Shown piece after piece: positions 3,340 to 35,937 of a stretch of 35,937 bases of DNA. Source of the stretch: Ignavibacteriales bacterium (GTDB lineage: Bacteria; Bacteroidota; Ignavibacteria; Ignavibacteriales; Ignavibacteriaceae); contig JAAYVN010000084.1 in the NCBI GenBank assembly GCA_012517155.1, positions 1 to 35,937 of the forward strand. Reading direction: 5' to 3'. The translations under genes were made by a program, and so were the position numbers. How positions within the stretch are numbered: the first letter of the stretch is position 1; the number at the start of each line of letters is the position of its first letter. The notes under the pieces are model-generated. The model had not been told where the DNA came from, made no database searches, and saw nothing but the letters and a program-made list of their open reading frames with translations.

Positions 3340-4365
3340 TTATTTAATGTTTATAAATTTATACCGGAACGGGAAAGAAGTATTTCCCTTTGAATTGACG
3401 GCTATTATTCTAATATCACACGCATTAATGGAGTCATCGTTAACCGATACTTTAACCTGATTACTCCTGGCATCGAATAAAAACGAATTCACGGCAGTAG
3501 AGTCGAAAAAGACCTTTATACTATTGGGGTCGATAGTATTTTTATCAGTGATTTTAAAGAAGAGTTCCTTAACGCCATTATTTATTTCTTCAGTAAAGAA
3601 AGAAATTTTAGGAACACCAGTTTTAAAGTAGCGGCACAATCCCTTGAAAATTCCCCAAGCCTGAATTTTATTAAAATCCTCGAGGGCTAAGCGCTGTTCT
3701 TCCCAGTTGTGGGTATGGAAGCCGCACTCAAGAAGAACGGCAGGAATTTCGGTATGCCGGAGGACAGAAAATCCAGCTTTCGGATAAATCCAATAATCAG
3801 AGTAAGTCCCGTCAAACGAACCAAGACCTCCGCTATTTCTCATAGCAAAAGCCAAGTCACGCTGAATAAACTTAGCGAGGTCTTTTTCCATCTGTTCAAA
3901 TTCGAAATCAGACTCGGTTGCATGGTAATAAGTTGAAGTATAATTAGTCCAATTATCCCCAGCTTTTCCGGGGGCATTATGATGCACGCTTATAAAAATA
4001 TCCGCACCGCTTTGATTTGCCATAATTGAACGGTCTTTAAGGCTTACAGTTTTGTCAATATCTCTTGACAAGAAGACAGTTGCCCCGGCTTGCTCAAGAA
4101 AGCTTCTAAGATAAAGGGAAACGCGCAGATTCACATCTGCTTCAATAGCGATACCCATAGGTCCGGTATTTTTCCGGTCCTCTCCTCCATGTCCCGGGTC
4201 AAGGAAAATCTTTAGTCCGGATAAACCCGAGCTACAGTCAGAGATGCTGTTATTCATTAATTGCGTATCAAGGAACTCCCTCGGGACATCGTAGTAAACA
4301 GCGGGGCCGGAGGAACATCCATAGAAAAGGACAACAAGAACAAACAGAGCAAAATATTTTTTCAT
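3340..4365 (-). CDS. N-acetylmuramoyl-L-alanine amidase, lipoprotein (Amidase_3)
   Basis: Predicted to cut the amide bond between N-acetylmuramic acid and the stem peptide of peptidoglycan. A lipoprotein signal ends at Cys17 (LFYGC). The zinc amidase core spans about residues 50-247. Ligands and catalytic residues are visible: His59 in DPGHGG, Glu75 in GIAIEADVN, His128 in SVHHNA and Glu213 in LLECGFH. The last 90 residues form a beta-rich tail resembling an immunoglobulin-like domain. Most of the region between His128 and Glu213 is an insertion containing FDGTYSDYWIY, which may be a regulatory or substrate element. AAGGAGAT sits just before the ATG. Co-transcription with spmAB suggests an envelope-remodelling role. 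Membrane leaflet is not decided by the sequence. Confidence 0.92.
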   Translation of the reverse strand: MKKYFALFVLVVLFYGCSSGPAVYYDVPREFLDTQLMNNSISDCSSGLSGLKIFLDPGHGGEDRKNTGPMGIAIEADVNLRVSLYLRSFLEQAGATVFLSRDIDKTVSLKDRSIMANQSGADIFISVHHNAPGKAGDNWTNYTSTYYHATESDFEFEQMEKDLAKFIQRDLAFAMRNSGGLGSFDGTYSDYWIYPKAGFSVLRHTEIPAVLLECGFHTHNWEEQRLALEDFNKIQAWGIFKGLCRYFKTGVPKISFFTEEINNGVKELFFKITDKNTIDPNSIKVFFDSTAVNSFLFDARSNQVKVSVNDDSINACDIRIIAVNSKGNTSFPFRYKFINIK

Positions 4366-24930: not shown

Positions 24931-25555
24931 AAATGTTGTTTTTTAAGTAAAACCGCCAGAGTAATCCGGTTGATTTAGTAATTCCTATTCTTTTTGATGC
25001 AACAATCAATTCATCCGCAGGATTTTCCGGAGAAGGGGAGGGGGAAACTGCGGGAAAATGTGATTTTTCAGATGCAATATAAATATTTCCGGCAAGCAAA
25101 TCTAATCCATTGTGAGCCTTATCAATTGAGAAAGCGGAGCAGATTTTAGCGGGACCATTAAGGAGGTTAATAAGCCGGGAGGGGGAGGGGGATTTTGTGT
25201 TAAAACGCCGGGCGGATAGGAGTTGAATTCCGGCAACAGGTTCAAGTGCGCGAATGAGGACAGCGGCACCATGCCCTTTTTTTCCGGTAACAACATTGCA
25301 GCAGTAATGTACGCCATAAATAAAATAGACGTAAAGGTGTCCGCCACGAAGGAACATAACGCTATTGCGGGGAGTTTGTCCATTAAAAGAATGAGAAGCG
25401 GGATCGGAAGAATCATAAGCCTCGACTTCCACAATTTTGCCGGCGAGGAGGAAGTTCTTTTCCTCTTTAATGAAGAACTTGCCGAGAAGGTCGCGAGCGA
25501 CGGAGACGACCTCCCGGTTAAAGAAAGAGGGGGAAGAGATTCTGTATAAATTCAT
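24902..25555 (-). CDS. aag: DNA-3-methyladenine glycosylase (AAG/MPG type)
   Basis: A 217-residue base-excision repair enzyme that removes alkylated purines such as 3-methyladenine and hypoxanthine. The AAG core is clear: GKIVEVEAYD with the catalytic Glu45, ASHSFNGQTPRNSVMF, then LYVYFIYGVHYCCNVVT and VLIRALEP. A proline/serine-rich insert lies at about 165-178. It differs from the helix-hairpin-helix AlkA type. It is the first gene of the long minus-strand run and overlaps the glycosyltransferase start. The upstream region is shared with the divergent PHP gene and contains evenly spaced TGCATAA sites. Confidence 0.93.
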   Translation of the reverse strand: MNLYRISSPSFFNREVVSVARDLLGKFFIKEEKNFLLAGKIVEVEAYDSSDPASHSFNGQTPRNSVMFLRGGHLYVYFIYGVHYCCNVVTGKKGHGAAVLIRALEPVAGIQLLSARRFNTKSPSPSRLINLLNGPAKICSAFSIDKAHNGLDLLAGNIYIASEKSHFPAVSPSPSPENPADELIVASKRIGITKSTGLLWRFYLKNNIYVSKNSIGK

Positions 25556-25586
25556 TGTTTCAGTTTAAGTTAAATTATGTTAAATT

Positions 25587-25633
25587 TGCATAAGGATGAA
25601 AGAGAGTTATGCAGATAAAATGGGATTGCATAA
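25587..25633. promoter_or_regulatory. three TGCATAA sites at 20-bp spacing in a divergent promoter
   Basis: TGCATAA occurs at 25587-25593 and 25627-25633, and its inverse TTATGCA at 25607-25613. Starts are exactly 20 bp apart, about two helical turns, so bound proteins would line up on one face. The first site overlaps a plus-strand TAAATTTG (25581-25588), a possible -7 element for the PHP gene. The first two copies could also form a hairpin with a 13-base loop. This looks like an operator, but no regulator is identified. Confidence 0.45.
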
Positions 25634-25683
25634 CGAGTAAAAATTTGTTTTTTAGAAGTGAAAAATATAAATAATTATTAAAT

Positions 25684-26730
25684 ATGCAAGAATACGCAGG
25701 AGCAATCCATATACACTCAAGGTTTTCGGACGGGAGCGGGGAGATACCGGAGATTGCGAGTTTGGCAAACGAGGCGGGGCTGGACTTTATAATCCTGACC
25801 GATCATAACACGCTGAGGGGATTGACCGAAGGATACGAAAGATTTTACGGGGAGACATTATGTCTGGTGGGGTGCGAGATAAATGACAAGGAAAACAAGA
25901 ATCATTATTTAGCGATGGGGATAGAGAAGACATTTTCGACAAGAATGCCGGCAAAGGAATTCGTAAGGGCAGTAAAAGAGAGCGGGGGGATTGGATTTCT
26001 AGCGCATCCATTTGAGAAGAGGGATTCGATGAAGGAGCATCCGCCATATCCGTGGACGGAGTGGGACTGTGATGAGTACACAGGGATAGAGATATGGAAT
26101 CATATGTCGGAGTGGATGGAGAACTTAACAGAACAGAACAAATACCAGGCATTCATGCATCCGCTAAAATCAATTGCCGGTCCGACAAAAGAAGCGCTAA
26201 CGAAGTGGGATGAAGAAAGTATGAAGCGGAAGGTGGTGGGGATAGGGGGAATTGACGCGCATGCACACAGAGTGAATCTGCTGGGATTTTTTGAAGTTGA
26301 GGTGTTCCCTTATAAAGTTTTATTTAAATCAATAAGGACGCATGTTCTTACGCATCACAAGCTGGACAGAAAGAAAGGGGAGGAGGGAGTTAAGAAGGGG
26401 AAGAGTATGATATATGAAGCGCTGAGGGAGGGAAGATGTTTTGTATCAAACTATTATCATGGAGATGCGACCGGATTCAGATTTTTTGCAGAAGAGGGGA
26501 AGAATGTGTATCAGATGGGGGATAAGGTAAAACTGACCAAGAACTTAAAACTGCGGGTGGAGGTTCCGGAAGTTGTGGCTACGATAAGGGTAATCAGGAA
26601 CGGGGAACTATATGCAATTACGGAGGGATTAAAAGGGGAGTATGAAGTAAGCGAAGGGGGGATGTACAGGACAGAGATATTTGTCAATAAGAAAGCATGG
26701 ATATTCTCGAATCATATCAGAATTGAATAA
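25684..26730 (+). CDS. PHP-domain metal-dependent phosphoesterase
   Basis: A 348-residue cytoplasmic protein. The PHP metal-binding motifs are complete: HIHSRFSDGS (His9, His11, Asp16), LTDHNT (Asp40, His41), the GCEIN glutamate, a conserved LAHPFE and GIDAHA. The C-terminal 120 residues are beta-rich (about 270-348) and may be a separate domain. Relatives hydrolyse phosphoesters such as histidinol phosphate or small nucleotides; the substrate here is unknown. It has no signal peptide. It is transcribed alone, divergently from the glycosylase gene. Its codons are markedly rich in G (GGG, AGG, GAG), in line with the G excess of this strand. Confidence 0.85.
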   Translation: MQEYAGAIHIHSRFSDGSGEIPEIASLANEAGLDFIILTDHNTLRGLTEGYERFYGETLCLVGCEINDKENKNHYLAMGIEKTFSTRMPAKEFVRAVKESGGIGFLAHPFEKRDSMKEHPPYPWTEWDCDEYTGIEIWNHMSEWMENLTEQNKYQAFMHPLKSIAGPTKEALTKWDEESMKRKVVGIGGIDAHAHRVNLLGFFEVEVFPYKVLFKSIRTHVLTHHKLDRKKGEEGVKKGKSMIYEALREGRCFVSNYYHGDATGFRFFAEEGKNVYQMGDKVKLTKNLKLRVEVPEVVATIRVIRNGELYAITEGLKGEYEVSEGGMYRTEIFVNKKAWIFSNHIRIE

Positions 26731-26756
26731 TACAAGAGGGAGGGGGATAAAATAAA

Positions 26757-26777
26757 GGGTTCCCAATGCGAGAACCC
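26757..26777 (-). terminator. terminator of the DUF6266-like gene
   Basis: GGGTTC and GAACCC pair over 6 bp around a 9-base loop. On the minus strand the hairpin is followed by TTTATTTTATC. It starts 15 bases after the stop codon. The PHP gene ends 26 bases away on the other strand, so it may serve both, though the plus side lacks T. Confidence 0.55.
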
Positions 26778-26792
26778 AATCAAATCAAAGGA

Positions 26793-27458
26793 CTATGAAT
26801 TCAGAGGGAAAGAGGAGCCCTTATTAGAAAACCATTCCTGAACACCATCCTTAGAAAACAACAAAGCAGAATAAGCGATTACTTCCTGATACAGCGGGAA
26901 ATTTGAGGTAATATGATCACCGAGAGGGAAGACCTGCTCATGGGTACCGAACGTAACCTCGTTTTGCAGGTAAGCAAAGGAGAGGAAATCGGTATTGGTA
27001 TTCAGGGGTTTAATAAAAGCGAGCACGATAAAAAGTTGGTGAGAAGTTGATCCCGGGATGAAAGCATCATCTGAAAGAGTGAGAGTCAGGGTGTTGTTAA
27101 TCAAAGAAGCAGATTTTACTGGATTAATGAGAGTCAGGGGAGCTATCCGGTTGTTAGGGGAGAGGAATTCATTTGAGAGGCGATCCTTATTAGCCATGAG
27201 GATTTTTCTATAGGTTGTAGATCCGGATAATTCGGGATTATTCCAGAGTGCAGCCAGGGAATAGATCCTATTAACAAAAGAAGAAAATTTAGAATAAGAT
27301 TTGAACATATTCCGGGCGGTAACAGCTTTATCTGAATAACTCGCCTTATAATTCTGTGGTCTAACAGAAACCACCAATTTGTCATTCATATTTCGATAAA
27401 CAATATTTCCAATTTTCCCTATGGGAAGACCGAGTACTGACTTTTTAACCTTAGCCAT
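26793..27458 (-). CDS. DUF6266-like protein, function unknown
   Basis: A 221-residue protein without signal peptide or membrane helix. The N end MAKVKKSVLGLPIGKIGNIV, then a VSVRPQNY block and a long helical stretch (residues about 48-95), resembles DUF6266, a family seen in Bacteroidota and their phages. The resemblance is to the N-terminal glycine-lysine pattern only, so the assignment is tentative. The C half is beta-rich, with repeated Ser/Thr/Leu strands. ATG at 27458 has AGGTGT upstream; an earlier in-frame ATG at 27497 would start 13 codons earlier and lies before that site. The gene has its own promoter and terminator. Other possibilities: a phage-derived structural or an exported adhesion protein. 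Confidence 0.6.
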   Translation of the reverse strand: MAKVKKSVLGLPIGKIGNIVYRNMNDKLVVSVRPQNYKASYSDKAVTARNMFKSYSKFSSFVNRIYSLAALWNNPELSGSTTYRKILMANKDRLSNEFLSPNNRIAPLTLINPVKSASLINNTLTLTLSDDAFIPGSTSHQLFIVLAFIKPLNTNTDFLSFAYLQNEVTFGTHEQVFPLGDHITSNFPLYQEVIAYSALLFSKDGVQEWFSNKGSSFPLNS

Positions 27459-27494
27459 ATTAACACCTATATAAATAATTAACAAATTTGTATG

Positions 27495-27525
27495 CAAATA
27501 TATAAAGTTAAAATGGAAATTGCAA
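27495..27525 (-). promoter_or_regulatory. promoter of the DUF6266-like gene
   Basis: Minus strand: TTG (27525-27523), 20-base spacer, TATATTTG (27502-27495). It matches TTG-N20-TAnnTTTG exactly and stands 37 bases before the ATG. The same arrangement occurs in front of the TetR gene. The repeat array starts 18 bases upstream of the TTG. Confidence 0.6.
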
Positions 27526-27543
27526 GACTTTTGTATCGAGTTA

Positions 27544-27631
27544 AGTACGTAATCAGTACCTATTCACCACGTATTCAGTACGTAATCACTACGTATTCAC
27601 CACGTAATCACTACGTAAACACCACGTATTC
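27544..27631. repeat. eight tandem 11-bp repeats, consensus ACTACGTATTC
   Basis: Units begin at 27544, 27555, 27566, 27577, 27588, 27599, 27610 and 27621. Variation is confined to a few positions: AGT, ACC or ACT at the start, and TATTC or TAATC at the end (TAAAC once). Seven of eight keep ACGTA, and four contain the palindrome TACGTA. A degenerate ninth unit follows. The period is close to one DNA turn, so the sites face the same side. It lies just upstream of the DUF6266-like promoter. It could be a protein-binding array or a minisatellite. Confidence 0.85.
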
Positions 27632-27706
27632 ACATCGAAAGAAGAGGGGGATTTTGGTGGGGGGAAGGGTGAAAAAAGAAAAAAAGAAGAAATTTTAAGA
27701 AAATTG

Positions 27707-27737
27707 TTGACAAGGAGGGAAAGATGTGTTATATTTG
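27707..27737 (+). promoter_or_regulatory. promoter of the TetR gene
   Basis: TTGACA (27707-27712) and TATATT (27730-27735) are separated by 17 bases, a near-consensus sigma-70 layout. Read the Bacteroidota way it is TTG-N20-TATATTTG. The leader to the ATG at 27779 is about 35 bases and carries no clear ribosome site. Confidence 0.65.
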
Positions 27738-27774
27738 ATAGAGTTATTTAATTAATTTATTTAATAGAGCTATT
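27737..27774 (+). promoter_or_regulatory. two candidate TetR operator sites
   Basis: GATAGAGTTATT (27737-27748) and AATAGAGCTATT (27763-27774) share 10 of 12 bases, 26 bp apart. The second is a palindrome (AATAG-AG-CTATT). The first begins on the last base of the -7 element, and the second ends four bases before the ATG. TetR-family genes often repress themselves from such sites. Inference only. Confidence 0.45.
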
Positions 27775-27778
27775 AAGA

Positions 27779-28399
27779 ATGGAAGAAAATAAAAATACAA
27801 ATTTAGAACAGGCTATACTTGAAGTAGCGGAGAGGTTGTTCCTGGAGAAGGGATTTGCGATGACTTCGACTACGGAAATAGCTAAGGAAGCAGGGTGTAA
27901 TCAGGGACTAGTGCATTATTATTACCGGACTAAGGAGAAATTGTTTGAGGAGGTTTTTTCGAAAAAGGCGGAGTTGTTTTTTTCGGCATTCATGAATGTG
28001 GAGAATGAGGAGCTGCCGTTTAGGGAAAAACTGCGAAGGGTGATAGAGGTGCATTTTGATATGCTGATGAAGAATCCGAGGCTGCCGTTTTTGCTGATTA
28101 ATGAGTTTACTACAAATCCGGGGAGGGTTTTGTCGGTGAAGGAGAAGATAAAGAATTTGCCGGAGTCGGTGCTTGCAAAAATGGAGAAGGAGCTGAAGGA
28201 AGAGATTCGCTGCGGGAGGATTAGGGAGATTGAGCTGGTTGATCTGATGCTGATGATTATCTCGCTGAACGGAGGGCTGTTTATTGCAAAGCCAATTATG
28301 GGGGCGATTATGGGGATGGGGGAGGAGGAATGGGAGAGACTGGCAAAGCGGAGAAGGGATGAGAATGTGAGGATAATTTTGCAGGCGGTGGAGGGGTGA
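27779..28399 (+). CDS. TetR/AcrR family transcriptional regulator
   Basis: A 206-residue regulator. The DNA-binding helix-turn-helix spans about residues 10-56, with AERLFLEKGFAMTSTTEIAKEAG and HYYYRTKEKLFEEVF, the canonical TetR pattern. The C-terminal ligand and dimerisation domain (60-206) is helical and unassigned. It stands at the head of an export operon (TolC-type channel, HlyD adaptor, two ABC ATPases, two permeases). The TetR regulator CecR next to E. coli ybhGFSR is the closest known parallel. Self-repression and control of the exporter by a substrate are likely. A 238-base gap separates it from the channel gene, so the exporter may also have its own promoter. No clear ribosome site is seen. 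Confidence 0.92.
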   Translation: MEENKNTNLEQAILEVAERLFLEKGFAMTSTTEIAKEAGCNQGLVHYYYRTKEKLFEEVFSKKAELFFSAFMNVENEELPFREKLRRVIEVHFDMLMKNPRLPFLLINEFTTNPGRVLSVKEKIKNLPESVLAKMEKELKEEIRCGRIREIELVDLMLMIISLNGGLFIAKPIMGAIMGMGEEEWERLAKRRRDENVRIILQAVEG

Positions 28400-28449
28400 T
28401 AGGGATGGAGGGACGGAAAAAATGTTTATTTGTTGAGGTGAATGTTTGT

Positions 28450-28481
28450 ATGGATGAATGGATGCATGGATGCATGGATGA
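28450..28481. repeat. four tandem 8-bp repeats (ATGGATGA/C)
   Basis: ATGGATGA, ATGGATGC, ATGGATGC and ATGGATGA follow each other without gaps, 50 bases after the TetR stop codon. The 8-bp unit would shift frame on gain or loss, so it is probably a simple-sequence repeat in noncoding DNA. Confidence 0.75.
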
Positions 28482-28571
28482 ATTATATGGAGGGAGGGAG
28501 AGTTTTGTTGATTTGTAGAAAGTGGGGGCGGGTGTCCGGTGAGGTTCTTCGGCACGGGATTGGTTTTTTAC

Positions 28572-28610
28572 CACAGATTCACACAGATTATACACGGATT
28601 CTCACAGATT
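28572..28610. repeat. four phased CACRGATT repeats
   Basis: CACAGATT at 28572, 28582 and 28603 and CACGGATT at 28593, at spacings of 10, 11 and 10 bases, averaging one helical turn. They end 28 bases before the TolC-type gene. Similar CACAGATT runs are scattered noncoding repeats in many bacterial genomes. A control role is possible but unproven. Confidence 0.65.
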
Positions 28611-28637
28611 ATTTGTGCACAAAGGTTTAATAGTTAA

Positions 28638-29906
28638 ATGGTGAAAGGTATGAGAAGAGGTATTTGGATTTTGGTTTTAACGGGATGGATTAGTTTTACA
28701 TCCGGACAGGTGACGCTGGAGGTGTGCCAGGAGAAGGCGAAACGAAATTATCCCATTGTAAAACAGTACGGAATTATTGAAGCTATAGCAGAGAATAATT
28801 TATCGAACGCAAATAAAGGATGGCTGCCACAACTTTCGATTACGGGACGGATTACACATCAGTCTGACGTAACGGAATTGCCAATCAAACTGCCAACAAT
28901 AAATATTGAGGGGATGAGCAAGGACCAGTATCAGGGGGTGGTAGAAATCACGCAGACTATATGGGACGGGGGGATAATAAGTTCGCAGAAGGGAATAACC
29001 AAAGCGAACAGGGAATTGGAGAAGAGCAAACTTGATGTGGATTTATATGCGCTGAGGGAGAGGGTGAATCAGTATTATTTCGGGATACTGCTTCTGGAAG
29101 AGCAGTTGAAGACAAATGAAATCCTGATTGACGAACTGAAGAGTAATTACGATAAAGTATCGGCGATGGTTAAGAACGGAGTGGCAAACGAGGCAGATCT
29201 CAATGCGGTAAGGGTTGAGGAGATAAAAGCGGAACAGAGGAAAATTGAGATTATGACTACGGGGAAGGGGTACAGAGAGATGCTATCGCTGCTGACCGGG
29301 GAAGATATAATGGAGGGGACGGTTTTTGAGAAACCGGGAACGGAATTGCCGGCAGGGGCGATGACGAACAGGCGACCGGAACTGGATTTATTTGACTCAC
29401 AGAAAATGTTATTTGAGAGTCAGCGGGGAACAATCAACGCGGGGATAATGCCAAGAATCGGCTTGTTTGTTCAGGGGGGATACGGGAAGCCGGGGCTGAA
29501 TATGCTGAAGAATGAGGTGTCGGGATATTACATAGGGGGAGTGAGACTGAGCTGGAATCTGAGCGGACTTTACACAAGGGGGAATAGTCTTGAAACGATT
29601 GAGCTAAACAGCAAGGCGTTAGATTCACAGAGGGAGACGTTTCTATTTAACAGCGAGATAAAATCTGTTCAGCAGATTAATGAAATCAAAAAGATACGAC
29701 AGCTAATTGGAAAGGATGCGGAAATAATTCAGCTAAGGAACAGTATTAAAAGAGCGGCGGAATCAAAGGTGGAGAACGGAACACTTTCGGTGACTGATTT
29801 GGTGAGAGAGATTAATTCTGAGAATATGGCAAGGCAGGAGATGGCGCTGCACGAGATTCAGCTGATGATGACAATTTACAATTTAAAGAATTTATACAAC
29901 AATTAA
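28638..29906 (+). CDS. TolC-family outer membrane efflux protein
   Basis: A 422-residue protein with a signal peptide (to about residue 23, TSG). The mature part is the outer membrane efflux protein fold: a first repeat (about 25-210) and a second repeat (about 230-420). It shows the conserved NLSNANKGWLPQLSITG and SITGRITHQ segments and paired long helices (residues 95-190 and 320-420). It would form the outer membrane channel of the exporter. It is followed by the adaptor gene after 10 bases. ATG at 28638 has AAAGG 12 bases upstream; ATG at 28650 is an alternative start. Its codons favour G-ending triplets. Confidence 0.9.
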   Translation: MVKGMRRGIWILVLTGWISFTSGQVTLEVCQEKAKRNYPIVKQYGIIEAIAENNLSNANKGWLPQLSITGRITHQSDVTELPIKLPTINIEGMSKDQYQGVVEITQTIWDGGIISSQKGITKANRELEKSKLDVDLYALRERVNQYYFGILLLEEQLKTNEILIDELKSNYDKVSAMVKNGVANEADLNAVRVEEIKAEQRKIEIMTTGKGYREMLSLLTGEDIMEGTVFEKPGTELPAGAMTNRRPELDLFDSQKMLFESQRGTINAGIMPRIGLFVQGGYGKPGLNMLKNEVSGYYIGGVRLSWNLSGLYTRGNSLETIELNSKALDSQRETFLFNSEIKSVQQINEIKKIRQLIGKDAEIIQLRNSIKRAAESKVENGTLSVTDLVREINSENMARQEMALHEIQLMMTIYNLKNLYNN

Positions 29907-29916
29907 GAAGCGAAAA

Positions 29917-30822
29917 ATGAAAACAATGCAATATGTTATTTTAGGAATAGCAATAGTTTTAATATCAGGATGCGGCGGGGGAGAGGGAGAGTTTGACGCA
30001 TCGGGAGTATTTGAAGCGACGGAAGTTATAGTCTCCGCCGAGGCAAACGGAAAGATACTGGAGTTCAATGCGAATGAGGGGGATACGCTTGAGGCGGGAG
30101 AGAGGCTGGGTTATATTGACAGTCTGCAATTATACCTGAAGAAGTTACAACTGCTGGCAAGTCAGAGAAGTGTGCAGAAAAGGATGCCGGACATCAGGAC
30201 ACAGATAGCGGCAACAGAGCAGCAGATAGCAACAGCGAAGAAGGAAAAAGAGCGGGTTGAGAATCTGCTGAAAGCAAATGCGGTTAACAAGAAGCAGCTG
30301 GATGATCTGAATGCACAGATAGCTTTTTTAGAGAAGCAGCTTGCGGCACAGAGATCGAGTCTGAGCACAACCAATCAGAGCTTAACGGAGGAGAGCAGTG
30401 CGCTGGAGATTCAGATAAAGCAGATAAACGATCAGCTTGAGAAGAGCCGGATAATAAATCCGATAAGGGGGACGCTGTTAGTTAAATATGCAGAGACCGG
30501 AGAAATTACGGGAACGGGAAAACCTTTATTTAAGATAGCGGATATGGAGAATATGTATTTGCGGGCGTATATCAGCACAGGACAACTGACAAAGCTAAAA
30601 CTCGGGGAGACGGTGAAAGTATTTGCCGATTACGGTGAGGATGAGTATAAAGAATATAAGGGAAAAGTGACCTGGATATCGAGCAAGGCGGAATTCACAC
30701 CGAAGTCGATACAGACAAAAGATGAAAGGGCTAACTTAGTATATGCCGTTAAGATACAGGTGAAGAATGACGGATATCTTAAAATCGGAATGTACGGGGA
30801 AATAGAAATCAGCGAAGAATGA
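29917..30822 (+). CDS. HlyD/YbhG-type periplasmic adaptor, lipoprotein
   Basis: A 301-residue membrane-fusion protein linking the inner membrane ABC complex to the outer membrane channel. The signal peptide ends in LISGCGGG, so it is probably a lipoprotein. A biotinyl-lipoyl-like segment (FDASGVFEATEVIVSAEANG and KPLFKIADMENMYLRAYI) surrounds a coiled-coil hairpin (about 75-180; heptads rich in Gln, Lys and Glu). A beta-barrel domain follows. The layout and neighbours match E. coli YbhG. Its stop codon overlaps the first ATPase start (ATGA). Confidence 0.92.
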   Translation: MKTMQYVILGIAIVLISGCGGGEGEFDASGVFEATEVIVSAEANGKILEFNANEGDTLEAGERLGYIDSLQLYLKKLQLLASQRSVQKRMPDIRTQIAATEQQIATAKKEKERVENLLKANAVNKKQLDDLNAQIAFLEKQLAAQRSSLSTTNQSLTEESSALEIQIKQINDQLEKSRIINPIRGTLLVKYAETGEITGTGKPLFKIADMENMYLRAYISTGQLTKLKLGETVKVFADYGEDEYKEYKGKVTWISSKAEFTPKSIQTKDERANLVYAVKIQVKNDGYLKIGMYGEIEISEE

Positions 30823-31727
30823 AAGCCATAGAAGTAAAAGGACTTAAGAAGAAGTACCGGAAGACCGAAGCCATAAAGGGAGTAAGCTTTGAAGTTGATA
30901 AGGGAGAGCTGTTCGGGATAATCGGTCCGGACGGAGCCGGGAAGACAACGCTATTCAGGATACTGACAACATTAATATATCCTGATGAGGGGGAGGCGAG
31001 AGTTGAAGGACTGGATACAATAAAGGATTACAAGGAGATACGTCACATAGTCGGGTATATGCCGGGGAGATTCTCGTTATATCAGGACTTAAGTGTAGAA
31101 GAGAATCTGACATTTTTTGCGACCGTATTCAACACCACCATAAAAGAGAATTACCATTTAATAGAAGATATATACAAACAGATAGAGCCATTCAAGAGAC
31201 GAAAAGCGGGGAAGCTGAGCGGGGGAATGAAACAGAAGCTGGCTTTGAGCTGCGCATTAATACACAAGCCTAAAGTACTTTTCTTAGACGAACCGACAAC
31301 AGGAGTGGATCCGGTATCGAGAAAAGAATTCTGGGGGATGTTAAAGAAACTGAAGAAAGAGGGGATAACAATAATTGTATCCACGCCATACATGGATGAG
31401 GCGATGCTGTGTGACAGGATAGCGCTGATATCGGAAGGAGAGATAATGAAGATAAACAGTCCGGAGGGGATAATCGACGAATATGATTCGCGGTTATGGA
31501 AGATAAGGGGGGAGGATATGCACAGATTATTAAAGGACGTAAGAGAGTACGAGGGGACCGAGAGCTGCTATGCATTCGGGGATTCGCTGCACATAACATT
31601 AAAGGGGGGAGAAGAGAGTATAGGGGGGTTAGAGAAATTTGCTGAAGAAAAGGGGCACGGAAAAATCAGAGGGGAAGAGATAAGGGCAAACATAGAAGAC
31701 TGCTTTATGAAACTAATGAAGAAGTGA
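30819..31727 (+). CDS. ABC transporter ATPase 1 (YbhF N-half-like, H-loop lost)
   Basis: A 302-residue nucleotide-binding protein. Walker A is GPDGAGKTT (36-44), the signature is intact (LSGGM at 133-137) and Walker B with catalytic Glu is VLFLDEP (153-159). The switch histidine is missing: STPYMDEA has Pro190 where most have His. In E. coli YbhF the N-half ATPase also lacks this His. The C-terminal tail (residues about 225-302) is an extra regulatory extension. It pairs with the next ATPase, whose signature is degenerate; together they would make one active and one degenerate site. The stop is followed one base later by the second ATPase start. Confidence 0.93.
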   Translation: MKAIEVKGLKKKYRKTEAIKGVSFEVDKGELFGIIGPDGAGKTTLFRILTTLIYPDEGEARVEGLDTIKDYKEIRHIVGYMPGRFSLYQDLSVEENLTFFATVFNTTIKENYHLIEDIYKQIEPFKRRKAGKLSGGMKQKLALSCALIHKPKVLFLDEPTTGVDPVSRKEFWGMLKKLKKEGITIIVSTPYMDEAMLCDRIALISEGEIMKINSPEGIIDEYDSRLWKIRGEDMHRLLKDVREYEGTESCYAFGDSLHITLKGGEESIGGLEKFAEEKGHGKIRGEEIRANIEDCFMKLMKK

Positions 31728-31728
31728 T

Positions 31729-32469
31729 ATGAAGAAGGTAATCGAGGCAGAGAATTTAGTAAAGAAATTCGGAGACTTCACAGCAGTTGACAACATCACC
31801 TTTCAGGTAAATGAGGGGGAGATATTCGGATTTTTAGGGGCGAACGGAGCGGGAAAGACAACTGCGATGAGGATGCTTTGCGGACTAAGCAAACCGACTT
31901 CGGGGGAAGGGAGAGTTGCGGGTTACGACATTGGGAAAGAAGCCGAAAAAGTAAAGGCGAACATAGGTTACATGAGTCAGAAATTTTCTTTATACAATGA
32001 TTTGAAAGTTTGGGAGAACATAAGGCTTTTCGGCGGGATATACGGAATGGGGAGTGATGAAATAAAAGAAAAAACAGATGAGTTGTTAAAGAGGTTAAAT
32101 TTCGAAAATGAGAAGAACACAATGGTAAAATCGTTACCGCTGGGGTGGAAGCAGAAGCTGGCATTTTCAGTATCAATATTTCACAATCCAAAAATAGTAT
32201 TTCTGGACGAGCCGACGGGGGGAGTGGATCCAGCAACGAGAAGGCAGTTCTGGGAATTAATATACGAGGCGACAGACAGGGGGATAACAGTATTCGTGAC
32301 AACTCATTATATGGATGAGGCGGAGTACTGCGACAGAGTTTCGATAATGGTGGACGGAAGGATAGACGCTTTGGAGAGTCCGATGAAGTTACGGGAAACA
32401 TACGATGCGAAGAACATGGATGAGGTATTTTATCAGCTTGCGCGAACCGCAAAAAGGAACGGGGGATAG
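31729..32469 (+). CDS. ABC transporter ATPase 2 (YbhF C-half-like, degenerate signature)
   Basis: A 246-residue nucleotide-binding protein. Walker A is GANGAGKTT (37-45), Walker B FLDEP, and the switch His is present in TTHYMDEAEYCD. The signature is LPLGW (136-140) instead of LSGGQ, as in the C-half of YbhF. In a heterodimer, its weak signature would face the first ATPase's Walker A and missing switch His. So the degenerate site is made of both degenerate elements, and the other site is complete. It ends in TAG, directly followed by the ATG of a 23-residue micro-frame (32470). Confidence 0.92.
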   Translation: MKKVIEAENLVKKFGDFTAVDNITFQVNEGEIFGFLGANGAGKTTAMRMLCGLSKPTSGEGRVAGYDIGKEAEKVKANIGYMSQKFSLYNDLKVWENIRLFGGIYGMGSDEIKEKTDELLKRLNFENEKNTMVKSLPLGWKQKLAFSVSIFHNPKIVFLDEPTGGVDPATRRQFWELIYEATDRGITVFVTTHYMDEAEYCDRVSIMVDGRIDALESPMKLRETYDAKNMDEVFYQLARTAKRNGG

Positions 32470-32541
32470 ATGAAAAAGAAAGTGAGGATGTTTCTGAGCT
32501 GCAGGCGACTGATTCACGTCAGGAGAGGAGGGGAGAAATGA
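32470..32541 (+). CDS. possible 23-residue leader-type micro-ORF
   Basis: ATG at 32470 follows the ATPase 2 stop codon with no gap and the frame ends in TGA at 32541, overlapping the permease ATG (ATGA). The product is short and strongly basic (7 Arg, 4 Lys). GAGGAGGGG ahead of 32538 could be the permease ribosome site. It may couple translation across the 68-base gap or be chance. No family is recognised. Confidence 0.3.
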   Translation: MKKKVRMFLSCRRLIHVRRGGEK

Positions 32542-33644
32542 AGCAGTTTCTTGCATTCGTGAGGAAAGAGATATATCACATAATGAGAGATGTGCGGACG
32601 ATAATGATACTGCTAGGGATACCGGTAATACAGATTATACTTTTCGGATTTGCAATTTCGACGGAAGTAAGGAATGCGGAGATTGCGATATATGATCCCT
32701 CGAACGATGCAGCGACAAGGAGGATAGCGGAGCAGATTGAGACGAGCAGTTATTTTAATATAGTCAAATATATAAGCAGTCCAAAAGAGATTGACCAATT
32801 GTTCAAAAAGGGGGAAGTGAGCATTGTGCTTGTATTTGCGGACAGATTCAGAGAGAAGATGCTGCACACGGGGAAGGGGGAGATACAGATAATTGCGGAT
32901 GCATCGGATCCGAACAATGCGACATCACTGACGAACTATCTAAGGGGGATTATCGGGGTTTATCAGCAAGAGTTAATGAAGGAGCAAAAGGTGCCATACC
33001 AGATCACGTCAGAAGTAAAACTGCTTTACAATCCGCAAATGAAGGGGGCATACAATTTTGTGCCCGGAGTGCTGGGGATGATACTGATGCTGATATGCGC
33101 GATGATGACATCAATTGCGGTAGTCAGGGAGAAAGAGATGGGGACAATGGAAGTGCTGTTAGTCTCCCCCATGAAGCCGCTGTTAATAATAATTGCCAAG
33201 GCGGTTCCTTATTTTCTATTATCCTGCATTAATCTGACGACTGTGCTGTTGCTGTCGGTATTTGTACTTGATGTACCGGTGGCAGGGAGTTTATTCTGGC
33301 TAATCACGGTTTCGCTGGTATTCATATTTGTGTCACTCTCATTAGGACTGCTGGTATCGACGATAACAGAGAGTCAGATGATTGCGATGCTGATATCGGG
33401 AATGGTTTTCATGCTTCCGGTGGTATTATTATCGGGGATGATGTTTCCGGTGGAGAACATGCCAGATTTTCTGCAGTGGATATCGTTAGCAATTCCGGCA
33501 CGTTGGTACATAGCGGCGGTGAAGGATATAATGATAAAGGGGCTTGGATTTGAGGGGATAGTAAAGGAACTGGTAATACTGTCCGGGATGATTGTTTTTT
33601 TACTAGCCGTGAGTCTGAAAAAATTCAAATCGAGGCTGGAGTAG
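32538..33644 (+). CDS. ABC-2 type permease (YbhS/YbhR-like), first
   Basis: A 368-residue inner membrane protein with the ABC2_membrane layout. There is one N-terminal helix (about 20-40), an outer domain of about 130 residues (45-175), then five to six helices (about 178-365). Segments such as REKEMGTMEVLLVSPMKP and FMLPVVLLSGMMFPVENMP are family hallmarks. It would form half of the transport channel with the next gene. AGGAGGGG lies 3-10 bases before the ATG, and a micro-frame overlaps this start. Substrate is unknown; related exporters move drugs or ions. Confidence 0.92.
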   Translation: MKQFLAFVRKEIYHIMRDVRTIMILLGIPVIQIILFGFAISTEVRNAEIAIYDPSNDAATRRIAEQIETSSYFNIVKYISSPKEIDQLFKKGEVSIVLVFADRFREKMLHTGKGEIQIIADASDPNNATSLTNYLRGIIGVYQQELMKEQKVPYQITSEVKLLYNPQMKGAYNFVPGVLGMILMLICAMMTSIAVVREKEMGTMEVLLVSPMKPLLIIIAKAVPYFLLSCINLTTVLLLSVFVLDVPVAGSLFWLITVSLVFIFVSLSLGLLVSTITESQMIAMLISGMVFMLPVVLLSGMMFPVENMPDFLQWISLAIPARWYIAAVKDIMIKGLGFEGIVKELVILSGMIVFLLAVSLKKFKSRLE

Positions 33645-33647
33645 GAA

Positions 33648-34760
33648 ATGCTGAAATATTTAATTGAAAAAGAATTCAAACAGATACTGAGAAATCCTAT
33701 CCTGCCGAGGCTGATACTGGTATTTCCTTTAATGGCATTGCTGATACTACCGTTAGCAGCTAACTATGAAATAAAGAATATAAATCTGTGTGTGGTGGAT
33801 AACGATCAGAGTCCCTACTCGCGGAAACTGGTTGAAAAAATAAGATCGTCCGGATATTTTGTAATAACAAAAACAGCGAAGACATACGACAAGGGGCTGG
33901 AGGCAATAGAGTATGACGATGCGGATGTGCTGATTGAGATACCAAAAAATTTCGAGAAGGAGCTTATAAGAGAGGGGAAGGGGAAAGTATTAATATCCGC
34001 AAATGCCGTAAACGGAATGAAGGGGGGGCTGTCAAGTTCGTACTTATCGAGTATCGTTACGGATTTCGCGGGGGAGGTAAGGAGTGAGTGGATAGAGGCA
34101 GGAACGGGGGGAGGAGTGCCGGTAATAGAGATTATGCCGCTGAACAGGTTTAATCAGAATCTTGATTATCACTCGTACATGGTGCCGGCGATAATGGTGA
34201 TGCTACTGACAATGATATGCGGATTTCTGCCGGCGTTAAATATAGTGAGTGAAAAGGAGGCGGGGACGATAGAGCAGATAAACGTAACGCCTATCAGGAA
34301 GTTTACTTTTATAATTTCGAAGCTGATACCGTACTGGATAATCGGGATAATTGTGCTGACGATAGGATTCGGAGTAGCGGCGGTCGGATATAATTTGCTA
34401 CCCGCGGGGAGTTTTGGGACGATATATGTGTTTGCGGCGGTATATGTACTGGCGGTTTCGGGATTCGGGCTGCTGGTTTCCAATTATTCGGAGACGCTGC
34501 AGCAAGCGTTGTTTGTAATATTTTTCTTTGTGATAATATTTATACTGATAAGCGGATTATATACGCCGATAAAGAGTATGCCGGAATGGGCGCAGACGCT
34601 GACGGTGATAAATCCGTTAAGGTACTTTATTGAGATGATGAGGAGCGTGTATCTGAAAGGGAGCGGGCTTTTTGATTTGCAGAAGCAGATGATTGCGTTG
34701 CTAATATTCGCGGGGCTGTTTAATGTGCTGGCGGTGGTGAGTTACAGGAAGAGGCAATAA
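33648..34760 (+). CDS. ABC-2 type permease (YbhS/YbhR-like), second
   Basis: A 370-residue paralogue of the preceding gene with the same plan: one helix (about 18-38), outer domain (40-175), then six helices to residue 365. The shared segments SEKEAGTIEQINVTPIRKF and IFILISGLYTPIKSMPEWAQ mark the ABC-2 permease family. The gap to the first permease is three bases. It completes the set of two ATPases and two permeases and ends the operon. No terminator hairpin is visible downstream; short direct repeats fill the next 140 bases. The two permeases have diverged enough to act as a heterodimer. Confidence 0.92.
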   Translation: MLKYLIEKEFKQILRNPILPRLILVFPLMALLILPLAANYEIKNINLCVVDNDQSPYSRKLVEKIRSSGYFVITKTAKTYDKGLEAIEYDDADVLIEIPKNFEKELIREGKGKVLISANAVNGMKGGLSSSYLSSIVTDFAGEVRSEWIEAGTGGGVPVIEIMPLNRFNQNLDYHSYMVPAIMVMLLTMICGFLPALNIVSEKEAGTIEQINVTPIRKFTFIISKLIPYWIIGIIVLTIGFGVAAVGYNLLPAGSFGTIYVFAAVYVLAVSGFGLLVSNYSETLQQALFVIFFFVIIFILISGLYTPIKSMPEWAQTLTVINPLRYFIEMMRSVYLKGSGLFDLQKQMIALLIFAGLFNVLAVVSYRKRQ

Positions 34761-34777
34761 ACACAGTTGTCTGAATT

Positions 34778-34800
34778 AGGATTAGTAGGATTAAAGGATT
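34778..34800. repeat. AGGATT direct repeats
   Basis: AGGATT at 34778, 34787 and 34795, with TTAGG following at 34801. Similar AGGATTA-rich runs occur as scattered noncoding repeats in many genomes. Nothing ties it to gene control here. Confidence 0.5.
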
Positions 34801-34805
34801 TTAGG

Positions 34806-34875
34806 AGTGACTAGTGACTAGTGACTAGTGACTGGTGACTGGTGACTGGTGACTAGTGACTAGTGACTGGTGACA
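34806..34875. repeat. ten tandem 7-bp repeats (RGTGACT)
   Basis: Ten gapless heptamers: AGTGACT four times, GGTGACT three times, AGTGACT twice, then GGTGACA. The blockwise change from A to G suggests duplication in groups rather than independent mutations. It lies between the exporter operon and the trxB 3' end, both ending here. Copy number may vary between strains. Confidence 0.88.
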
Positions 34876-34885
34876 AGGGAAATAT

Positions 34886-34906
34886 CGTTTGTAACGTTTG
34901 TAACGT
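34886..34906. repeat. 9-bp tandem duplication CGTTTGTAA
   Basis: CGTTTGTAA occurs twice in direct succession (34886-34903), followed by CGT. It lies 11 bases after the heptamer array. The trxB gene ends 34 bases further on. Together they make 34761-34940 a 180-base spacer made mostly of short repeats. Confidence 0.6.
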
Positions 34907-34940
34907 GGGAACAGACGAAGGTCAATAGGCTACGCCGTCA

Positions 34941-35876
34941 TTAGCTACGCGTTATCAGGTTGTTGATGTAATCGGCGGCGGAGAGGGCGGCGATTGTGCC
35001 ATCAGCTACTGCAGTGGTTACCTGTCGGTATTTTTTTGCGATAGAATCGCCTGCGGCGAAAACGCCGGGAAGATTTGTTTTCATAACCGCATCCACTTTG
35101 ATTTCTTTCCATTCATTCAATTCGATAATGCCTTCGAGCTTTTCTGTGTTGGGGACATAACCGATGAAAATAAATACACCGTCAATATTCATTGCCATGA
35201 TATCACCGGTTTTCAGGTTTTTTAATCTGACGGAACTGAGTTTTTCGCTGCCAATGAATTCAGTTATTGCAGTTTCCATAATGAAACTTATTTTAGGATT
35301 CTTTTTTGCTTCGTCCACATAATGGGAGAAAGCCTGGAAATGATCAAACTGATGCACGACGGTGACTTTAGAAGCGTATTTTGTGAGCGCAACGGCTTCT
35401 TCAAGTGCCGAGTTTCCACCACCGACAACAATAATATCTTTATCCTGAAAGAAGTCGCCGTCACAAGTTGCGCAGTATGAAATACCTTTGCCTTTAAAAG
35501 TATCCTCACCAACAGCACCTATTGTACGTGAGCGTCCTCCGGTGGAGATAATAACGGCGTGTGAAGTGTAAATATCCTTTTCGTTAACAGTGATTTTTTT
35601 AACATCGCCTGAAAGGTCGAAGGAGGTAATGCGGAGATTGGATTTAATGGTACAGCCGAAATTCTGAGCCTGAGTTTTCATGTTACGGGCGAGTTCGTAT
35701 CCGCTGATGGAGTGAACGCCGGGATAGTTAGCAATTTCGTGGGTGAGGACCATTTGTCCGCCAACGGCACCCTCGTTAAGGATGAGGGTTCTGACTTTTG
35801 CGCGTGAGAGGTAGATACCTGCAGTCAGTCCGGCTGCTCCGGCACCTATAACTATAACATCAAAATGATTATCCAT
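34941..35876 (-). CDS. trxB: thioredoxin reductase, variant nucleotide-binding motif
   Basis: A 311-residue FAD enzyme that reduces thioredoxin. FAD binding is GAGAAG (11-16), the redox pair is CATC (Cys135, Cys138), and GVFAAGD near the C end completes the FAD site. The nucleotide domain has GGGNSALEEA (152-161). But the usual HRRxxxRA that binds the 2'-phosphate of NADPH is replaced by HQFDHFQA (175-182), with no Arg. NADH or another donor is therefore possible. It is the only gene in the window's last 1.2 kb. The start is preceded by a weak TTGGG. A terminator hairpin sits 22 bases upstream, and no promoter is visible between. Confidence 0.93.
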   Translation of the reverse strand: MDNHFDVIVIGAGAAGLTAGIYLSRAKVRTLILNEGAVGGQMVLTHEIANYPGVHSISGYELARNMKTQAQNFGCTIKSNLRITSFDLSGDVKKITVNEKDIYTSHAVIISTGGRSRTIGAVGEDTFKGKGISYCATCDGDFFQDKDIIVVGGGNSALEEAVALTKYASKVTVVHQFDHFQAFSHYVDEAKKNPKISFIMETAITEFIGSEKLSSVRLKNLKTGDIMAMNIDGVFIFIGYVPNTEKLEGIIELNEWKEIKVDAVMKTNLPGVFAAGDSIAKKYRQVTTAVADGTIAALSAADYINNLITRS

Positions 35877-35897
35877 AAATTCCCAAGGTTAAAAAGG

Positions 35898-35917
35898 GGG
35901 AGAGAAAAATCTCTCCC
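35898..35917 (-). terminator. terminator hairpin just ahead of trxB
   Basis: GGGAGAGA (35898-35905) and TCTCTCCC (35910-35917) pair perfectly over 8 bp with an AAAA loop. On the minus strand it is followed by CCTTTTTAACC, a T run. It would end a gene beyond 35937, yet stands 22 bases before the trxB ATG, leaving no room for a separate promoter. trxB may depend on read-through, or this may be an attenuator. Confidence 0.75.
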
Positions 35918-35937
35918 TCAAAAAAAGATTTATTTAC

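Follow-up and report, generated by a model that had tools for sequence, protein, structure and literature searches.

Dispersed arrays of 11-bp direct repeats, paired with a DUF6266-like gene family, lie at the centres of strand-asymmetric zones in an Ignavibacteriales genome

Results

The genome of this Ignavibacteriales bacterium contains at least 40 related intergenic arrays of tandem 11-bp units. They belong to two main unit families, ACGTATTCAGT and ACGGCTTTACC, and each array family has one copy just upstream of a member of a gene family of ~225 amino acids. In this genome the arrays are local extrema of strand asymmetry, occupying the centres of ~20-kb zones in which the array strand is G-rich. 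We are highly confident of this description, that is, of a gene-array pair, its dispersed copies, and arrays that centre ~20-kb skew zones.

An array of eight units upstream of a DUF6266-like gene

The window (the whole stretch of DNA analysed, 35,937 nucleotides) contains one such array between a DUF6266-like gene and a divergently oriented TetR-family gene (Table 1). Tandem Repeats Finder reported a repeat of period 11, 22 and 33 at 27544–27633, with a best score of 138, and the units run in the order ACGTAATCAGT ACCTATTCACC ACGTATTCAGT ACGTAATCACT ACGTATTCACC ACGTAATCACT ACGTAAACACC ACGTATTCACA. This confirmed the original prediction of eight gapless 11-bp units: the 400 bp upstream of the DUF6266-like gene score 36/44 at period 11, whereas shuffled upstream regions, taking the best score over periods 6–20, have a mean of 22.8 and a 95% point of 26. 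The TACGTA core is palindromic in some units only. The divergent layout predicted for this locus was also right, with promoter-like hexamers for the TetR gene (TTGACA at 27707–27712 and TATATT at 27730–27735, 17 bp apart) lying ~73 bp past the array. An Rfam scan of 27000–28200 gave two matches, both far below their gathering scores. Elsewhere in the window, a 7-bp tandem repeat (AGTGACT, 9.9 copies) occupies 34806–34874, in the most skewed part, where four-fold-site skew is ~0.8.

Table 1. Coordinates of the array and surrounding features in the window
Feature	Position	Strand	Basis or remark
Array of eight gapless 11-bp units, ACGTATTCAGT type	27547–27634	+	Read from the DNA and Tandem Repeats Finder
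Conserved left end TCGAGTTAAGT, a degenerate unit common to dispersed copies	27536–27546	+	ATCGA..TTAAGT before most copies
Conserved right end TCGAAAGAAGAGGGGG	27635–27650	+	TCGAAGGRAGAGGGG then G-rich tail in nearly all 21 copies
DUF6266-like gene, 221 aa, family uncatalogued; array in its upstream region	26793–27458	−	
TTGACA-17-TATATT, sigma-70-like hexamers before the TetR gene; neighbour, probably outside the element	27707–27735	+	Read from sequence
TetR-family regulator of efflux operon, neighbour	27779–28399	+	
Strong GC skew domain around the array, four-fold-site skew 0.58–0.81, genes on either strand	25000–35937	+	

Related arrays are dispersed through intergenic DNA

By BLAST, the window array's family occupies 21 places in its own genome, which represent 20 loci because contigs C128 and C155 overlap. 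The ACGGCTTTACC-like family occupies 22 places, among 31 matches; these represent 21 loci because C133 and C135 are near duplicates. Recurrence at so many unrelated loci largely refutes the earlier view of the array as a private promoter device, and we therefore rejected a unique promoter array. Copies of the first family share a common plan, consisting of ATCGA..TTAAGT, repeated ACGTATTCA(GT/CC/CT), a final ACGTATTCA(TA/CA), TCGAAGGRAGAGGGG and a G-rich tail, with the variant unit ACGGCTTTAGT within many copies. Intact ACGTATTCA-type copies have 5–8 units. The locus shared by the overlapping contigs has eight units on C155 (L059) and seven on C128 (L063), which is strain variation within the assembly, and identical five-unit arrays are found at three unrelated loci (C146, C109 and C33).

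Arrays of other units with the same WCG phase are present at C8:8071 and C25:60721. Genome-wide, WCG recurring every 11 bp five times gave 66 forward and 81 reverse matches, whereas the reversed control gave 9 and 6, respectively; the weak period-11 matches at C109:62644 and C57:10535 (score 29) were treated as chance. The array counts miss arrays built of units with no known sequence, and gene calls are simple ORF calls on a draft genome that looks like a metagenome assembly.

None of 43 arrays lies inside an ORF, though the coding fraction is 0.91. Where both neighbours are visible (36 arrays), the flanking genes are divergent at 19 arrays, tandem at 13 and convergent at 4. The divergent share of background gaps is 65/211 (31%); the excess at arrays is mild (Fisher p = 0.013), and there is therefore at most a mild preference for promoters. 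The proposed tie to two divergent promoters is confined to gene-linked arrays. As direct repeats, the arrays fold weakly (mean z −1.28 on the array strand, 6/20 below −2).

A search for the consensus in the genome and its relatives, proposed with the original prediction, succeeded at the 21 places in the own genome and found nothing by BLAST in 40 relatives; an exact pattern search of GTDB contigs likewise returned no window unit from another species. Relatives carry units other than the window's. A phage or plasmid origin was rejected, there being no match in phages or plasmids. Four exact pattern matches in viral contigs look like chance, and one of these contigs (L081) contains at 4120–4260 a different, unrelated-looking 11-bp array of ATTCAGGACKT units. 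No relatives of the window gene were found in viral contigs.

Array orientation predicts the sign of the skew

When arrays of the first family are oriented alike, the GC skew of their ±5 kb flanks (300 bp left out) is positive at 20 of 21; at the sole disagreement, C17:2326, an opposite-facing array lies 14 kb off. The skew profile peaks at the array, at ~0.2 within 2 kb, ~0.1 at 5–15 kb and ~0 beyond 18 kb. At four-fold sites the skew is ~0.55 within 3 kb, with the same sign on both sides, and decays over ~10 kb. The array strand at these sites has G at 0.32–0.34 and C at 0.08–0.11 within 3 kb, compared with 0.15–0.16 and 0.18, respectively, at 30–60 kb. Near arrays four-fold T drops and A goes up slightly. 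The skew is the same for genes on either strand and on both sides of the array; a coding-strand effect was ruled out, as gene strand makes no difference. An early idea, that arrays follow the leading strand, was abandoned: the skew is local, and its sign changes every 20–60 kb. We found no selected motif behind the skew that was strong beyond a Markov model; the highest Markov z (6.6) belongs to a 6-mer that is near-equal on both strands.

The sign of the skew matched the array strand at all 27 distinct loci, from the two families, that were read first. For 15 further arrays the sign was predicted before the sequence was read, and all 15 predictions were right; these represent 14 distinct loci (p = 1.2e-4 for 14), and one of the arrays, C57:21259, had been partly seen beforehand. 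C128/C155 and C133/C135 are each counted once in distinct-locus figures. Four arrays, all of which agree in sign, were left out of the count: C5:12192, whose unit is purine-rich, so that orienting it would be circular; C8:8071 and C25:60721, which were oriented by a WCGG rule chosen afterwards; and C151, which was oriented by its gene.

From array positions and orientations alone, a one-parameter kernel model accounted for 72% of the skew variance (R2 0.72, r 0.848). The kernel sums orientation x exp(-distance/10 kb) over arrays and was applied to 398 two-kb windows on 17 contigs, with the decay length picked among nine values on the same data. With random orientations the maximum r in 500 draws was 0.485, and with random positions and true orientations it was 0.705, also in 500 draws. 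Skew peaks with no findable array are present on C90 (42–48 kb), C33 (90–96 kb) and C25 (74–82 kb).

The partner gene family keeps the 11-bp period

The window gene carries a ACGTATTCAGT array; a ACGGCTTTACC array accompanies its C39 paralogue, whose product shares 43% identity with the window protein. Each array family thus has its own gene-linked copy. Paralogues on C18, C96, C91 and C81 have no array upstream. A profile of four sequences identified homologues in 43 of 116 relatives and seven in the own genome. The window protein matches its homologue in G018 with a phmmer E of 1.6e-14, and the named relatives come from Ignavibacteriales, Ignavibacterium, Melioribacter and Bacteroidetes MAGs.

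Among the 59 homologues with readable upstream DNA, 11 was the best upstream period (6–20 tested) in 38, versus 2 of the 37 controls with readable downstream DNA. A period-11 score of at least 27/44 was reached by 34/59 upstream regions and by 0/37 downstream controls. The unit sequence varies from gene to gene, with a CG core in most. Because the period, and not the unit sequence, is kept upstream of these homologues, the suggestion in the original prediction that a period near one DNA turn provides a cooperative binding platform is still plausible.

The window protein had no match in Pfam up to E 10, and no family assignment above cut-off was obtained in Pfam, NCBIfam or PHROG. PF19781 (DUF6266) matched two homologues weakly, below cut-off (E 0.017 and 0.067), and a search of the own genome with it returned nothing at E 0.001. 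At PF19781 loci in a phylum-wide sample, the best upstream period was 11 in 5 of 14 testable cases, so the gene-array pairing may be wider. The name DUF6266 is absent from the open-access literature searched, and the gene family is without a described function. Genuine PF19781 genes in distant Bacteroidota were seen with 11-bp-period arrays upstream (L281, L282, L284, L287 and L288), the array at L281 being near perfect (41/44).

The structural model of the protein (pLDDT 63) has a C-terminal FnIII-like sandwich, with 74–87 in its better blocks; its N-terminal part, three strands and a helix (b-b-b-a), is poorly predicted, mostly below 66. Fold matches of this low-confidence model mainly concern the FnIII-like domain, and no RHH is seen in it. 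We found no nuclease or transposase domain, nor any catalytic family, in the window gene, and a single-sequence fold of one homologue was uninformative (pLDDT 31).

Two kinds of neighbouring gene were also noted. An unclassified sigma-factor-like/HTH gene lies near the family gene at 13 of 56 loci (L178, L182, L190, L195, L197, L220, L222–L224 and others), on the opposite strand in the loci listed, which suggests that gene, array and sigma-like gene form a module. At L193, L234, L239, L241, L242 and L245, an ORF of 83–106 aa with no assigned family lies near the family gene on the same strand.

Related genomes carry arrays, with and without a skew peak

In a first scan the WCG-phase pattern matched 8 of 59 genomes, and 24 of 164 genomes of the order match the array pattern. 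Arrays of G018, G038 and G054, found blind by WCG phase, sit 40–190 bp upstream of window-gene homologues. In G078 there are seven array loci, built of a unit particular to that genome (ACGTTTTCAGG), and one of the seven (C61) is gene-linked; there are five array loci in G062, three in G104 and two each in G054 and G096. Solitary arrays also occur in G078, G062, G054 and G096, and dispersal of arrays has happened more than once. At one locus (L165, G038:C32:172123-174269), read from its sequence, an array is flanked by what is left of the family gene (26 aa) on one side and by an IS110-like transposase ORF on the other, a layout that suggests insertion at the array.

Around the arrays of G078 the oriented skew is 0.29 within 2.5 kb, 0.28 at 2.5–5 kb and ~0.12 at 5–10 kb, weaker than in the own genome. 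Six of its seven arrays are clearly concordant and the seventh gives 0.02, with 20 control windows ranging from −0.17 to 0.26. In G070, local skew is +0.42 at the gene-linked array. Around the arrays of G018, G038, G054, G104, G022 and G062 there is no clear skew peak. The effect is thus lineage-bound, and an array alone is not sufficient for it.

Discussion

Several known systems share features with these arrays. KOPS/SRS are polar motifs on the G-rich strand that are read by FtsK/SpoIIIE, and they are single 8-mers along replichores. The arrays are likewise polar chromosomal sites on the G-rich strand; in contrast to KOPS/SRS, there are ~40 of them, the sign changes every 20–60 kb, and no k-mer is strongly over-represented beyond Markov expectation. 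The ParR/parC iterons of plasmid R1 are 11-bp direct repeats beside the gene of their binding protein, and ParR is a ribbon-helix-helix protein. Here, too, 11-bp direct repeats adjoin the gene of a putative binding protein, but the arrays are chromosomal and dispersed, and the partner is predicted, from a low-confidence model, to be b-b-b-a plus FnIII-like. ParB spreads from parS, a palindromic site, and reaches ~10 kb to both sides. The site-centred effect described here also reaches ~10 kb both ways; unlike parS, the array is non-palindromic, its effect is strand-asymmetric, and the window gene has no Pfam match to a ParB family. The DUF6266 family itself (PF19781) has weak similarity to two homologues and period 11 at 5/14 of its loci, with the window protein unmatched. 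The sections of PMC9836097 considered here report that peaks of GC skew contain gene-transfer-agent clusters as well as core genes, and do not mention arrays. In the open-access literature searched, we found no description of dispersed arrays marking ±10-kb domains of strand asymmetry. Arrays with strand-asymmetry zones are a new kind of genomic landmark.

We propose that each array offers its DUF6266-like protein a cognate, polar platform with multiple binding sites, on which the protein would assemble as an oligomer along one face of the DNA. The bound platform would nucleate a process that spreads about equally both ways, falls off with a length constant close to 10 kb and acts differently on the two strands; this might be an oriented factor that slides along the DNA, a tract of strand-specific repair or gap filling, or fixed-polarity single-strand recombination. 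Over evolutionary time, pyrimidines on the array strand would become purines, chiefly by change of C and T to G. The upstream position of the array would also permit autoregulation of the gene. We give a probability of roughly 0.4 to the causal part of this proposal, that an array causes skew through a bound protein; arrays as the cause of skew and arrays settling in skewed DNA are both compatible with these data.

Because the decay is symmetric, exponential-like and of one sign on one strand, an ordinary origin or terminus, at which the sign would switch, is excluded, and a one-sided effect of the fork or Chi type is disfavoured. The pattern is consistent with a process that is nucleated at the site and extends in both directions without losing the site's polarity. 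As the model shows no catalytic family, we favour a platform that would recruit or orient something else. A bolder version, which we consider rather unlikely, is that the arrays represent a new class of cis-acting polar sites setting local strand identity, in which protein on the array would load an oriented factor that slides ~10 kb both ways and targets repair or gap filling to a chosen strand, so that ~40 sites would outweigh origin and terminus in shaping asymmetry.

The rival that we take most seriously, though we think it rather improbable, is selfish dispersal in the manner of REPINs: non-autonomous arrays spread by a trans-acting enzyme would settle in fixed orientation in already strand-asymmetric DNA, for example single-stranded places. 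In the sections of PMC3116915 considered here, each RAYT gene has a distinct REPIN cluster next to it, with solitary copies elsewhere, and the arrays have the same parent-plus-solitary layout, being short dispersed extragenic elements with their own flavour beside each gene copy. The identical five-unit arrays at unrelated loci and the exclusion from ORFs also favour dispersal. However, the arrays are weakly folding direct 11-bp tandem units and not palindrome or hairpin units; the linked gene is DUF6266-like, with no nuclease or transposase domain, and not a Y1 transposase, a family (PF01797) represented in the own genome by just one 47-aa open frame on C10. Strand-composition domains, present here, are absent from the REPIN/RAYT account in those sections. 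Moreover, skew peaks already in place before the arrays, spaced some 70 kb apart and centred at arrays, would need a cause of their own, and positions matter in the kernel.

Less likely again is that arrays mark DNA for uptake or packaging, with fixed-polarity single strands recombining over ~10 kb tracts under strand-biased mutation. One-strand skew that decays symmetrically with distance would follow from this, and the copies are intergenic, polar and dispersed, but no uptake or packaging gene was linked to the array, and known uptake sequences are short words that occur in far greater numbers than these arrays. We put slightly lower still an array that serves solely as a promoter operator for the DUF6266-like gene and the gene divergent from it, with the solitary copies and the skew having other causes. 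The upstream arrays of most homologues, the sigma-like gene near 13/56 loci and the TetR gene in the window speak for such an operator; ~40 copies without the gene, 17/36 arrays outside divergent gaps and the locking of array orientation to the skew speak against it. A functionless minisatellite produced by replication slippage, the alternative raised in the original prediction, is very improbable: unit number does vary (5–8 in intact copies; 7 versus 8 at C128/C155), but the ends are conserved, whole arrays are dispersed, there is a cognate gene, and orientation is locked to strand composition.

Replication direction is the usual explanation for GC skew in bacteria. In the windows tested, array positions and orientations account for 72% of the variance in synonymous-site GC skew. 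If the arrays cause the skew, they would be transplantable handles on a strand-specific process of mutation or repair; if they merely mark it, they would be pointers to a strand-specific process that acts at set positions along the chromosome. In both cases the pairing of gene and array opens the study of co-divergence between a repeat and its protein.
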